Under the pieces are notes generated by a model, which saw nothing but the letters and a program-made list of their open reading frames with translations, made no database searches and was not told the DNA's origin. DNA of 64,000 bases from Synechococcus sp. Cruz-7E5 (lineage in GTDB: Bacteria; Cyanobacteriota; Cyanobacteriia; PCC-6307; Cyanobiaceae). Below, piece after piece: positions 10,022-15,052 of this stretch (within the stretch, counting starts at the first letter, position 1; each line of letters begins with the position of its first letter). The stretch covers positions 124,001-188,000 of the forward strand of contig NZ_JAGQCE010000004.1 of NCBI RefSeq assembly GCF_024345995.1. The letters are read 5' to 3'. Both the position numbers and the translations under genes were made by a program.

Positions 10022-10344
10022 ACAAAACCGCCACCGCGATGAGCCTCAGCAAGCAGGACACCCTGGCGGCCTCGGCCCCCTGGGTGGCCGTGGTCCTCAA
10101 CCTGGTGCCGGGCCTGGGCACCGGTTACATCTATCAACGACGCTGGCGGGCCTACTGGATCACCTCGGCCTTGAGCACCGGCTGGTTTGTGCTCGGCCTG
10201 GTGCTCGGCCAGCGGGACGGAGTGGATCTGGGCTCCCAGGCCGATCCGCGGCAACAGCTTGTCGGTCTAATTGGCCTGCTGCTGCTCGCTGCTGTCACCG
10301 CTGTGGAGGCGGGGATCGCCGCCCGCCGCGCACGGCAGGACTGA
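10018..10344 (+). CDS. Small membrane protein of unknown function inside the men operon
   Basis: 101-108 residues depending on start: a GTG at 10018 overlaps the menC stop (GTGA) and an ATG lies at 10039. Three hydrophobic stretches are separated by a basic loop (YIYQRRWRAYW). The first carries the NLVPGLGTGYIYQ motif, which resembles the turn of small TM2-like membrane proteins. No catalytic motif is visible. It sits between menC and menE with overlap on one side and 17 bases on the other. Co-translation with the pathway makes a role near quinone synthesis or membrane assembly possible, but this is inference from position. Confidence 0.75.
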   Translation: MNKTATAMSLSKQDTLAASAPWVAVVLNLVPGLGTGYIYQRRWRAYWITSALSTGWFVLGLVLGQRDGVDLGSQADPRQQLVGLIGLLLLAAVTAVEAGIAARRARQD

Positions 10345-10361
10345 ACGCGGGATCGTTGCCG

Positions 10362-11648
10362 ATGGGTTCTCCTCTGCTGCTCACCAGCGCCGAGCCGGCC
10401 GAGGGGCTGGTGGCACGGCTTGAGCAGGCCTGGCGTGAGGAGCGGCTGGTGGGCCTCTGCGCGGAGCAGGAGCAGGACCTGCTCGGCGCCGCTTTGGCAG
10501 GGTCAGTCCTGAGCGGCGCAGCAGTGGTGGTGGGCAGTGGCGGCAGTGCCGGCGGCCGCCGTTGGTGCCTGCAGCCCCTGGCCAACCTGGAGGCCTCAGC
10601 GTGCGCCACTGGCCAGTGGTTGCAATCGATCGGGCTGGATCCCTCAGCGATGCTGCAGCTCAACCCCCTGCCGCTTCATCACGTCAGCGGTCTGCTGCCC
10701 CTGGTGCGGAGCCGGGTCTGGGGGACGTCCTGGCGCAGGCTGCCGCCGGAGCTGATGCGCCGGCCCCGGGATCTGGCGGCGGCGTTTCCCCTTTCAGCCG
10801 ACCGTCCAGCGCTGCTCTCCCTGGTTCCCATCCAGCTGGAGCGGCTGCTGGCCGCAGCGGAGGGCTGCGCCTGGCTGCGGGGCTGCGCCGTGGTCTGGGT
10901 GGGAGGCGCGGCGCTCTCCAGCGAGTTGGCCGCCCGGGCCCGGGCGGCTGAGATCCCGCTCTCTCCCTGTTATGGCGCCAGCGAAACCGCCGCGATGGTG
11001 GCGGCCCTGCCTCCGGAGCGTTTCCTGGAGGGGGATGGGGGGTGTGGCCGGGCGCTGTCCGACGTGGAGCTGCGGCTTGACCCCGATGGTGCCCTGCTGG
11101 TGCGCACGAAACGCCTCAGCCCGGGCTTGCTGGAGGCCGGGCAGCTGCAGCCCCTGGAGCTTCAGGAGGGTTGGTGGTGCAGTGGCGATGGGGCCCGCTT
11201 CGGCCCCGCTGGGCTGGAGATTATGGGGCGGTTGGATGGGGCGATCAGCAGCGGCGGCGAAACCGTCTTCCCTGAACAGGTGGAGGCTCGGCTGCTGGGC
11301 TGGGCCCGGGCGGAGGAGCTGCCCCTGGACCAGTTGCTGCTGTTGCCCTGCCGTGATCCCCTCTGGGGCGAGCGCCTGGTGGCCCTGGTGCGTCATGGCG
11401 GGGCCTCAGGGTCACCAGCGCCAGGGCCTGAGGCGTCCACCGCCACAACGGCGGCCCTCATCGCCCATTGCCAGCGGCTGGCCAAACGGCTTCCCCCTGC
11501 CCAGCGCCCCCAACATTGGCTGGCCTGCCCTGATCTGGCCCCCAATGTCCTGGGCAAGTGGGAGCGGGGGCGCTGGAGCCGCTGGCTGACGGCCCGGGAG
11601 TCGACGTCGGCCGATGGGCCGGCTGACGCCACTATTACGGATCCATGA
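10362..11648 (+). CDS. menE: o-Succinylbenzoate-CoA ligase (MenE), divergent
   Basis: ANL-superfamily acyl-CoA ligase of the phylloquinone pathway. About 428 residues from the ATG at 10362 (a TTG lies two codons earlier), at the short end for the family. Visible motifs: PLHHVSGL, the adenine-binding CYGASETAA, the hinge GRLDGAISSGGETVFPEQVE and the C-terminal lysine in NVLGKWERGRW. The phosphate-binding loop, normally TSGTTGxPK, reads VVGSGGSAGGRRW here, so the usual lysine is replaced by arginine. Position in the operon and the later motifs support the call. Confidence 0.85.
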   Translation: MGSPLLLTSAEPAEGLVARLEQAWREERLVGLCAEQEQDLLGAALAGSVLSGAAVVVGSGGSAGGRRWCLQPLANLEASACATGQWLQSIGLDPSAMLQLNPLPLHHVSGLLPLVRSRVWGTSWRRLPPELMRRPRDLAAAFPLSADRPALLSLVPIQLERLLAAAEGCAWLRGCAVVWVGGAALSSELAARARAAEIPLSPCYGASETAAMVAALPPERFLEGDGGCGRALSDVELRLDPDGALLVRTKRLSPGLLEAGQLQPLELQEGWWCSGDGARFGPAGLEIMGRLDGAISSGGETVFPEQVEARLLGWARAEELPLDQLLLLPCRDPLWGERLVALVRHGGASGSPAPGPEASTATTAALIAHCQRLAKRLPPAQRPQHWLACPDLAPNVLGKWERGRWSRWLTARESTSADGPADATITDP

Positions 11649-11808
11649 CAACGGCCCGGACCGCGGCTAGAAGCGGGGGGGCACCGGATCCGCCATGACC
11701 GTCAGCCATCTCACCGAAGTCAGAAACAAACAGCTGGCGGAAGCGCTGTCCTGCATCTTTCTGGAGACGTCGGCATCCACAAGTTCCTGCTGGGGGCCTA
11801 AAGCAGGC

Positions 11809-12691
11809 AGGAGATAAGAGGATGGAGCTTAAACTCTAATGATTGCTTGAATAAATCCTGACAACAACTCTGATTTTTTGATTTTATGGCTATCAAGACA
11901 GCTTTTCTGCAGCTCAGGACTTCCGAGCCAATCGAAGAAGTTGTAGAGGCTGTGCAGCTCTCTCTAAGAAGATTAGGAGGGCAAATTCTTGCAAGAAATA
12001 ACACTATAATCGTGACAGATGGCAGTCAAGGTGTAAGCCTTGGATTTCTGGCAAGGATTCAAGCGACTGTTACTGTCAGCCCTAGTAAACGCAAGGAAGG
12101 AGCTTATGATATTGATTGTCAAATCATTACAAAGCCTAGCGGTATTTTTTGGATTTGCTTGGCTTTAGGATTTTGTCTGATTATATCATGGGCTGGCAAT
12201 ATTGCCTACTTGTTTGTCGATCCAATCCCTGTGTATCAACAGGCGCTTGATCGTGTACAATATGAACTCCCTTAAGCTGCGCAAGGCTAACCTGTCATTG
12301 AGGGAATGCTTTCTGTCATTGATGCGATATCAATACTGTTCTTGTCACAGTTTTCCGCAAATGAACTATAATCACTTCCTGATTTATGCTTAGAGCGACG
12401 ATTGGCAATTCCAGTATGGACAACAATGGAATGACGAAAGCAATTTCCTGCATCATGGCTACTTTTAAGGGGCGTGCTTGAGCAATATAGACTTGTCGTT
12501 GATTGCGCTCCTTATGGCATGCTTGTTTGTTAGGCTTGCTGTCGCTCATCCCGACTTTGATTCTTGCCAGCTTTGTTGGATGCGATAATGGTTCGTGTGC
12601 CTTTGTCAAGGGTTGCCAAGTTTGCAGTTCATTCGCTCTTATTCTTTGGATGACTCAGTGGATTTTAGGAGTTTTAACGTGATCAGTATGA
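11809..12691. other. AT-rich insert splitting the TM2 gene
   Basis: Base composition changes sharply. Hand counts give 26 of 60 G+C at 12061-12120 and 21 of 60 at 12121-12180, against 43 of 60 in menE (10801-10860). The insert holds one convincing small gene (11886-12275). The last 410 bases have no supported gene and stops in most frames. No transposase, terminal inverted repeat or target duplication could be seen. Near the right edge two TGATCA palindromes (12680-12685, 12689-12694) lie three bases apart. Boundaries are approximate, set where TM2 similarity stops and resumes. Confidence 0.65.
11886..12275 (+). CDS. Hypothetical membrane-anchored protein in the AT-rich insert
   Basis: 129 residues, not recognised. 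The N-terminal 85 residues look like a compact alpha/beta domain (IEEVVEAVQLSLRRLGGQIL, then NNTIIVTDGSQGVSLGF and a strand-rich ATVTVSPSK region). A single hydrophobic helix follows at about 89-110 and a short tail (VDPIPVYQQALDRVQ). The reading frame and helix amphipathicity look like real coding sequence. Codon use is AT-leaning, unlike its neighbours, which supports recent acquisition. No Shine-Dalgarno is visible ahead of the ATG; the upstream bases are T-rich. Function unknown. Confidence 0.6.
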   Translation: MAIKTAFLQLRTSEPIEEVVEAVQLSLRRLGGQILARNNTIIVTDGSQGVSLGFLARIQATVTVSPSKRKEGAYDIDCQIITKPSGIFWICLALGFCLIISWAGNIAYLFVDPIPVYQQALDRVQYELP

Positions 12692-12771
12692 TCAAGGGGG
12701 ATCATCTATCTCAACAAAATCCCCGACGAGTTCAAGGCCACCTACATCGATGCCAAGAAGGAGTGGTTCTG

Positions 12772-13011
12772 ATGGCTGGCCGCGGCCCCACATCATCACC
12801 TAAGGCTGGAGCCCTCAATCTGCGGGCACCCGGGCTCTCCGGCCGTCTCGGCCTGACGCTCCTCATCGCCATGGCGGCCTCGGTGAGTTTCTCCCTGGCG
12901 GGGGTGGCGGTGGAGGATGGCTTCCATCCGCTCACCCTGGTGGCCAGCCTGCTCCCGTTGCAGCTGGCGGCCCTGCTCTGGGCGCTCTCCCGCCGGCCAC
13001 CAATCCTCTGA
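12772..13011 (+). CDS. Small two-span membrane protein downstream of the TM2 remnant
   Basis: 79 residues from the ATG at 12772, which overlaps the stop of the TM2 remnant (TGATG). A GGAG eight bases upstream is a good ribosome-binding site. Residues about 24-44 and 51-72 are hydrophobic; the N-terminus is Ser/Pro/Gly-rich. It is high in GC like the host genome, so it belongs to the original locus rather than to the insert. Originally co-translated with the TM2 protein; with that gene broken its expression must depend on another promoter. Function unknown. Confidence 0.65.
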   Translation: MAGRGPTSSPKAGALNLRAPGLSGRLGLTLLIAMAASVSFSLAGVAVEDGFHPLTLVASLLPLQLAALLWALSRRPPIL

Positions 13012-13035: not shown

Positions 13036-13578
13036 TCACCCCTGCTCTTCCGGAGTTGAGGGAGGAGACTCCCAGCCGGCTGAGGCCTCCAGCCAGCGCT
13101 CGATCGGCTCCGGCAGCCCGCAGCGCCGCCGGCTGGTGGCCTCGATGGCCACGTGGTGGGTGAGGCCACGGGCCACTAGGCGGCTGGGGACATCGAGGCA
13201 CGTGAAGTTGTAGCTCACCTCAAAACTTCCGGACGTGAGCCGTCGTGGTGCGAGGCCGATTGCCAGCGGATCGCCGCACACCAGGGGTGCCAGGAAGTCG
13301 GCATGACAATGCACGATCGGAAGAGCCACCTTCGGCGGGCAGGGGTCGTCTGTGTCATGGGTCTCAGGGGTCCGGCCGGGGGTGGGAAAGATCGCAGCGG
13401 CTGAAATCCCGAAGGCTTCGAGGCTCTCCTCATAGGCCTCATGGCACCAACGCAGCAGTTGGTGGAAGTGCATCACGCCGGCGGCATCGGTCTCGCCGAA
13501 ACGCACCCTTCGGTGGAGCAGCAACCACCCGGAGGGATCGATTGGGGCCGTCCCGCTGCCGAGGAGGTCGCTGGTCAT
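13036..13578 (-). CDS. menI: 1,4-dihydroxy-2-naphthoyl-CoA thioesterase (hotdog fold)
   Basis: 180-residue 4HBT-type thioesterase with the family signature VRFGETDAAGVMHFHQLLRW followed by CHEAYEESL. The aspartate and glutamate of this region are the catalytic residues in DHNA-CoA hydrolases. A second segment, IVHCHADFLAPLVCGDPL, is the hotdog central strand. It releases DHNA from its CoA ester, the step before MenA. It is convergent with the small membrane gene and lies 1.4 kb from menE, separated from it only by the disrupted TM2 locus, so it is part of the men cluster. The C-terminal 20 residues are variable. Confidence 0.88.
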   Translation of the reverse strand: MTSDLLGSGTAPIDPSGWLLLHRRVRFGETDAAGVMHFHQLLRWCHEAYEESLEAFGISAAAIFPTPGRTPETHDTDDPCPPKVALPIVHCHADFLAPLVCGDPLAIGLAPRRLTSGSFEVSYNFTCLDVPSRLVARGLTHHVAIEATSRRRCGLPEPIERWLEASAGWESPPSTPEEQG

Positions 13579-13912
13579 GTTGTTGCCGCTCGATTCAATC
13601 TTGGCTTGCCTTGAACTTGGGTCTCCCGTTATGTCCTGCCCATATAGATGATCCCACCTCCCCGCCGCGCCTGGTGACCAGGCTGGTGGTGGAGATCGGC
13701 ATCCCAGCCAGCAAGGATCCGTCCAGGTGATGGTCAGACAGATGATGACAGAAAATGTCGTTTTCCTGTCTTGCTGGTCAAGGCGGCTTTTGAGAGCAAT
13801 GCTTTGAACACGAGTTGAGTGGCGGCGAGGGCGTCAAGGGGTTCCAGGCGCACAACTCATGCTTTCCCCGGCAGAGGTCGGTCTTCCAGTCCTGCTTTTT
13901 GGGTGTTCACTG
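13579..13912. other. Intergenic region between the thioesterase and the methyltransferase
   Basis: No supported gene. It presumably holds the divergent promoters of both neighbours, but no clear -35/-10 pair could be assigned. A 13-base palindrome, CCTGGTGACCAGG, lies at 13670-13682. The plus frame around 13657-13730 reads RLVTRLVVEIGIPASKDPSR before a stop and could be a decayed gene end, but nothing confirms it. If the methyltransferase uses the ATG at 13859, the region is shorter. Confidence 0.5.
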
Positions 13913-15052
13913 ATGGCACGTTCGATCGTTGATCTATCTGGAGCCCTGTCGGCGGCTTCGGCCGAGCCCCGGTCCAGGGAAGCCAGTCACTCCCTGGGGT
14001 ATAGGGGGACCCGTCTGATGGCAGGAGCCTTCAACCAGGCCCAGATGGCCATGGCGGAGGCCTACATCAATGGTCTGGAAATTCCTGACTCTCTCTTCCG
14101 AGGGATGATCCACGCCTCCATGCCCATCCTGTTTCGCCACTTCCCTGGTCTGTTGGCGCCATACGAATGGGTGCTGGAGGAATCTGATCAGATTGCGGAA
14201 TCATCCAGGGAGCTGATGGAGATTCAGTATGATCGCCCCCAGGAAATGCTGAACCGAATGCTGGGTGATTGGGAGCCTATCTATCCAAAATACAGCACTG
14301 GATACTGGGAGCATGGCGCCAGAGATCTGGAGGAATCGCAACGGCACATGATTGATCAGATGATTGAGCGTCTAGGCATTGTGGATGGAGACAATCTCCT
14401 TGATTTTGGTTGTGGGTGGGGCTGCGTTCCCAATTACATCCTTTCAAAGTTCCCCAACCTGCGCTGCACGGGGGTCAACCTGAGCCGGCAGCAATGTGCG
14501 TACATGCGTGGGAAGATGAATGATCCTCGTAGTCACCTGAGCTCTGGCAGGTTCACCCTCGTGGAGGGTGACATCAACGAGGTGGTGTTCCCGGAAAAAT
14601 TCAACAAGATCATCTCGGTTGGCGTGTTCTGCCATGTGGGCAATCTCACCAAGGCCTTCGCCAGGCTGGCTTCCCTGCTGGAGCCCCAGGGGAAGGTCCT
14701 GATTCATATCATCACCGTGCGAATCCCGAACAACATGTCGTCGGGCTTCACCCACAAGTATATTTTCCCGCATGGGAGATACTGGAATCATGACGCCGTT
14801 CCCGGCCACGATCGCGACCTGAGAACCATTGAAAGATGGTATATGAATGGAACCAACTATCACCAGACTCTCGCTGCCTGGCTGAATCGATTTGATGCCT
14901 GCCAGGATGTGGCCAGGCAATTGAACTATGGCATGGGCTATGCAAGATTTCGGCGAATATGGCGCTTTTATCTCCTGTTGCTTGGGACAATCTTCAGCAG
15001 CTGTGATGGCGAATTCAATGGCAACGGCCAGTATCTGTTGACCCATGCCTGA
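13859..15052 (+). CDS. Cyclopropane-fatty-acid synthase-like SAM methyltransferase
   Basis: 397 residues from the ATG at 13859 (a second ATG at 13913 gives 379). An N-terminal helical part (about 40-120) is followed by a Rossmann methyltransferase domain with motif I LLDFGCGWGCVP, then VNLSRQQCAYM, VEGDINEVVF and the ISVGVFCHVGN loop. The arrangement resembles CFA/mycolic-acid methyltransferases, where the region YSTGYWEHG precedes the domain. The substrate may be an acyl chain or another small molecule. GC is lower than nearby (30 of 60 at 14161-14220), which hints at horizontal origin. It lies just beyond the disrupted TM2 locus. Confidence 0.75.
   Translation: MLSPAEVGLPVLLFGCSLMARSIVDLSGALSAASAEPRSREASHSLGYRGTRLMAGAFNQAQMAMAEAYINGLEIPDSLFRGMIHASMPILFRHFPGLLAPYEWVLEESDQIAESSRELMEIQYDRPQEMLNRMLGDWEPIYPKYSTGYWEHGARDLEESQRHMIDQMIERLGIVDGDNLLDFGCGWGCVPNYILSKFPNLRCTGVNLSRQQCAYMRGKMNDPRSHLSSGRFTLVEGDINEVVFPEKFNKIISVGVFCHVGNLTKAFARLASLLEPQGKVLIHIITVRIPNNMSSGFTHKYIFPHGRYWNHDAVPGHDRDLRTIERWYMNGTNYHQTLAAWLNRFDACQDVARQLNYGMGYARFRRIWRFYLLLLGTIFSSCDGEFNGNGQYLLTHA

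Follow-up and report, generated by a model that had tools for sequence, protein, structure and literature searches.

The TM2-domain gene that follows menE in Synechococcus sp. Cruz-7E5 is probably a destroyed mosaic allele, recombined in from a cyanobacterium outside the strain's own close group. TM2 is described, in the excerpt of PMC3581485, as a short transmembrane helix pair of unknown function. Relatives hold an intact TM2 gene at this place. In Cruz-7E5 the sequence type changes at an edge at 11588, positions 11589 to 11794 are of other-genus type, 85 bp of the gene are missing and the DNA between its two remnants has an odd base composition. All positions refer to the stretch of 64,000 nucleotides that was analysed, here called the window (G000:C26:124001-188000 in a 3.16-Mb genome).

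The locus lies among vitamin K1 genes. Before it come menF (minus strand), menA, menC, a small ORF and menE, and after the TM2 pieces a 79-aa ORF and a thioesterase gene (minus strand); the names menF, menA, menC and menI are presumed from gene order and appearance. The menE-like o-succinylbenzoate-CoA ligase gene (10356..11648, plus strand) is of the genus type up to 11588 and of another type beyond. Its profile matches to menE models are all under the curated cut-offs, and that to AMP-binding is over the cut-off. In a protein tree, the product up to 11588 clusters with those of genomes G001 and G002 (98% SH-aLRT), its identity to the former being 95%. The 79-aa ORF (12772..13011, plus strand), whose start overlaps the TM2 stop, shows 94% identity to its counterpart in G001. 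The thioesterase gene (13036..13578, minus strand) matches 4HBT_2 over the cut-off and, by its position, is presumably menI. Its best relative lies in G003 (87%) and the identity to G001 is merely 63%, although the menE genes of the window and G001 are 96% identical; the mosaic seems to continue downstream into this gene. A lower-G+C gene for a cyclopropane-synthase-like methyltransferase (13859-15052; CMAS, 118 bits) adjoins menI. CMAS-like genes occur next to menI in G002, G003, G004, G005 and G007, and none was seen there in G001, G006 and G008; the position is apparently a second variable slot. The small ORF between menC and menE (10024-10344) matches DUF6677 weakly (18 bits; cut-off 24.3), and genomes of the genus retain it with 80-96% identity.

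The TM2 gene survives as a 5' piece (11695..11794, plus strand), with a one-base slip near 11762 and a reading frame that ends at 11817, and as a 3' tail with the stop codon (12679..12772, plus strand), with one extra base near 12696. The two lie on the same strand and, for most relatives compared, are 884 bp apart: on the 5' side, 14 of the 16 relatives align as far as 11794 and the remaining two as far as 11807 and 11808, and on the 3' side alignment begins between 12678 and 12682 in all 16. Near 11762 the 5' piece is one base short of each of the 21 relatives aligned to it, and the stop of the tail overlaps the start of the next gene (12770-12774). An earlier note, made from the letters of the window, had described two such pieces 0.88 kb apart, a base missing near 11762 and a C-terminal tail keeping both its stop and its overlap; every one of these features is there.

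One intact TM2 gene, in the order menE-TM2-small ORF-menI, is present in seven of eight same-genus genomes, G006 being the one without it. This comparison of the menE-menI interval bears out the claim that a TM2 gene is broken here. The two pieces evidently descend from a TM2 gene that stood at this position, and their arrangement is not due to chance, because seven of the eight genomes hold a single intact gene in the same order. No second TM2 gene was found elsewhere in this genome at E 0.01. Against the Pfam TM2 profile (PF05154; cut-off 27.9 bits), three intact homologues scored 39.8, 44.7 and 49.2 bits. A profile search gave a more divided answer on the pieces themselves: the 5' piece alone reached 14.3 bits (E 0.049), below the cut-off, and neither the 24-residue tail nor a query of the two pieces joined by X residues gave a match, yet both pieces match the intact TM2 genes of relatives.

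Between the pieces lies an AT-rich filler of 884 bp (11795..12678, plus strand); relative to the G001 TM2 gene it replaces 85 bp. With 42.4% G+C versus 65.3% for the window, it is as foreign-looking as had been supposed, and the window's lowest 884-base stretches fall there. The earlier note had left the choice between insertion and replacement open; the missing 85 bp show that it was a replacement and no simple insertion. The genome has one copy of the filler. When 400 family genomes were searched at the DNA level, no match reached past 11808, and a genome with the same filler was not found among those searched.

Several identities for the filler were considered and set aside. It is not a diverged TM2 middle, since a profile built from 29 TM2 proteins and run against all six frames gave a best full score of -1.2 bits. 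A 23-base direct repeat (11735 and 12432, 78%) had raised the possibility of a second TM2 copy and is taken as chance, because the same six-frame profile showed no TM2 signal. An insertion sequence or other transposable element was rejected: the ends of the filler carry no pair of repeats, there is no transposase in the ORFs scanned (two with Pfam, four with PHROGs, three with NCBIfam) and no further copy, and 85 bp of the target are lost. Nor is there a phage gene (best PHROGs E 0.37, for a 129-aa ORF; best phage tblastn E 0.2), a match to near-identical plasmid or phage DNA or, between 11500 and 13000, a known RNA family at E up to 1.

The largest ORF of the filler encodes 129 aa (11886..12275, plus strand), with one hydrophobic stretch near residues 80-111. 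No family in Pfam, PHROGs or NCBIfam matches it convincingly, and its single-sequence AlphaFold model is poor (mean pLDDT 54). Among 388 genomes of the class, plasmid pA of the filamentous cyanobacterium Kovacikia minuta matches its 45 C-terminal residues at 69% identity (E 6e-19), in a plasmid frame that is truncated. Of the 49 bases at which the two sequences differ, 16 fall on first, 6 on second and 27 on third codon positions; 17 of the 31 differing codons are synonymous. Because of this spread over codon positions and these synonymous codons, we read the protein as having been under selection. The Kovacikia relative (L078, 10534-10668) is truncated too: next to it lie ORFs that we take to be an IS21-type transposase pair, and its N-terminal half was not found in the 25 kb examined.

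No second convincing relative of the ORF was found. The sole hit in the 400 family genomes (G034, E 0.004) is doubtful and was taken as noise, as were hits in 13 further class and family genomes (E 0.001-0.05) and in nine of 386 phylum genomes (E 0.0015-0.0087), among which five had internal stop codons. Matches to viral contigs L065 and L066, at 35% over some 50 residues, depend on a single common peptide and were not trusted; another viral scan returned no relative. Two genome-contig scans confirmed none either, though they missed the Kovacikia sequence as well, and their negative result is thus not proof of absence.

A mosaic origin is indicated by the segment of other-genus type that covers the menE tail, the spacer and the TM2 5' part (11589..11794, plus strand). 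Under strict scoring, all seven genus relatives with TM2 cease to match at 11587-11588, and G113, G081, G176 and G212 match through to 11794. The edge at 11588 is in part the end of menE conservation, because three other-genus genomes (G017, G031 and G013) stop there too. Under laxer scoring, all 16 relatives align within the segment, with scores of 30-38 for the genus versus 58-78 for G113, G176, G212 and G081. In the 400-genome DNA search, which scored two candidates per genome, the best matches to the segment were G176 (group g10; 74% over 152 bases) and G113 (group g74; 75% over 131); in three genus genomes the match spanned about 70 bases. At 26 diagnostic sites, all seven genus genomes share a base that is not found in G176, G212, G113 or G081. 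The window follows the other genera at 23 of these sites, its own genus at one and neither at two, a count favoured by the choice of those four genomes as best matches. An AU test rejects placement of the 5' segment beside the nearest relatives, G001 and G002 (p 0.00117; 0.019 for the TM2-coding part alone). At the other end, 66-69 of 76 bases of the 3' tail agree with genus genomes and 70 of 76 with G081, figures too close to assign the tail to either type. The right joint lies somewhere between 12678 and about 12697, and no micro-homology of 3-10 bp could be fixed there.

A second exchange at about the same point is found in the sister genome G006. Its menE is genus-like up to about the same place (TGGCT) and then changes, and the bases right after TGGCT seem nearer to groups g54 or g6 than to its own genus, over a very short stretch. 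Its TM2 gene is gone save for the last four or five codons. The interval of about 2.2 kb contains a PspC-domain ORF (33.4 bits, over the cut-off of 25) within AT-rich DNA, as well as a DDE_3 transposase gene and additional AT-rich sequence. Both fillers encode N-x-SLRECFLSL, with synonymous codon differences inside SLRECFLSL (12295..12321 in the window, plus strand, in one frame). One of 200 simulated pairs reached the score of this match, two parts of the G006 filler having been compared. A degenerate pattern for SLRECFLSL occurs in two of 99 genomes, solely at the window and G006 loci. On this thin evidence, part of the two fillers may share ancestry.

How the 5' piece came to differ from the genus can be accounted for in other ways. 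The earlier note proposed that the 5' half is resident and decayed after the gene was destroyed, and foreign DNA, such as a decayed mobile element, may be imagined to have been inserted into a resident TM2 gene in this manner. The foreign look of the filler would fit, as would the frame slip and long end branch of the 5' piece, and some decay of that piece did occur (branch length 0.42). Decay, however, cannot give 23 of 26 sites the base of another genus; the other-genus type begins at 11589, within menE, and placement with G001 and G002 is rejected (p-AU 0.001). Moreover, 85 bp of the target are missing, and the filler has no end repeats, no second genome copy and no transposase in its scanned ORFs. 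We regard decay of a resident half as improbable. Somewhat less improbable, but still unlikely, is a within-genus exchange: an unsampled branch of the genus would have supplied the 5' piece, as an old divergent allele native to the genus, and the filler alone would be foreign. The AU test does not reject the 5' piece as sister to the whole genus (p 0.199; 0.15 for the TM2 part), in keeping with this proposal; the free tree, in contrast, sets the window outside the genus branch (96/96), and at 23 of 26 diagnostic sites it has the base of g10 and g74.

An artefact of assembly or binning, with the filler or its joints absent from the real chromosome, might also produce abrupt shifts in base composition and sequence type such as those seen here. 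Yet the locus lies in the middle of a 224-kb contig of an assembly that is 99.99% complete and 0.35% contaminated, the flanking genes belong to the genus, and the separate assembly of G006 has a filler with the same rare stretch at the same locus. An artefact is accordingly the least credible of these accounts, and we give it very little weight.

Import of a mosaic allele from outside the close group remains the account that we prefer. DNA would have been taken up from a cyanobacterium beyond that group and recombined into the chromosome, with the left edge in the conserved 3' end of menE (11588) and the right edge within, or just before, the conserved 3' end of TM2. The incoming stretch would have carried the menE tail and TM2 5' part of another lineage together with unrelated AT-rich DNA; we infer one event, along with its route and this donor. 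Two routes can be envisaged. In one, the left side would have paired by homology and the right side been joined illegitimately, with insertion and partial TM2 deletion in a single event. Alternatively, an allele already broken in the donor could have been imported whole, by ordinary recombination at both edges. No analysis separates the two, and we lean slightly toward the second because of the long end branch of the 5' piece (0.42) and the frame slips in both pieces. On the best reading, known kinds of genome exchange suffice to explain the locus as imported DNA in a small plastic slot.

To place the locus in the family, the stretch behind menE was surveyed in 74 genomes: 30 loci, 40 of the 94 other matching genomes (taken by rank, hence non-random) and G001, G004, G005 and G006. 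A full TM2 gene was present in 39 and a partial one in two (the window and G116); 33 had none, including G135, G126, G160 and G093, in which only short stretches behind menE were available. TM2 thus seems dispensable at this place in the family. Where measurable, the menE-menI interval ranges from 12 bp to about 2.5 kb, and its content is, judging from these genomes, variable across the family. In G116 (L111), a partial TM2 match of 32 bits lies in an interval of 324 bp and is perhaps another broken gene. Other intervals hold ORFs that we take, by resemblance, to be of assorted kinds: nucleotidyltransferase- and HEPN-like in G109 (L146), resembling toxin-antitoxin pairs, a nucleotidyltransferase-like ORF similar to it in G074, an SDR-like ORF beside TM2 in G084, a DUF305-like ORF in G110 and a lysozyme-like ORF in G063.

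A bolder extension, possible but doubtful, is that the interval is an exchange slot in which TM2 has repeatedly been swapped for unrelated small membrane proteins, such as the 129-aa ORF and the PspC-domain ORF of G006. The AT-rich alleles would be co-ancestral, as SLRECFLSL might indicate, and would move between genera by way of the conserved menE and TM2 3' ends; the 129-aa ORF would function as a gene, co-expressed with the men genes and belonging to a cyanobacterial family that is hardly described. Should the preferred account of mosaic import be right, the menE-menI interval could serve as a test site for inter-genus recombination in these cyanobacteria, and the filler ORF would give entry to a near-orphan protein family. 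On that account the locus itself provides a readable case in which a conserved small gene was lost through chimaeric import at a conserved gene end and not through simple decay. Among the matches listed in our literature search, none treated TM2 genes beside men genes.

Three known systems come closest to the locus. The pieces match both ends of relatives' intact TM2 domain genes (PF05154), whose products pass the cut-off; here, in contrast, the frame has slipped, 85 bp are absent, 884 bp of other DNA stand between and no TM2 domain is formed. The differing content of the menE-menI interval across the family recalls the chromosomal hotspots of gene turnover treated in the excerpt of PMC5635113, but this slot is very small (12 bp to about 2.5 kb). 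Homology-facilitated illegitimate recombination, the insertion-deletion process of DNA uptake to which the first route corresponds, joins foreign DNA to one homologous side, as the excerpt of PMC3240628 presents it; the deletion is usually about the size of the insertion, and the process was found to be very rare in conjugating E. coli. The present locus shares with it the homologous side, the foreign side and the loss of resident DNA, a likeness that equally fits import of an already-broken allele; it differs in that 884 bp came in and 85 bp went out, whereas the sizes given in that excerpt are similar.
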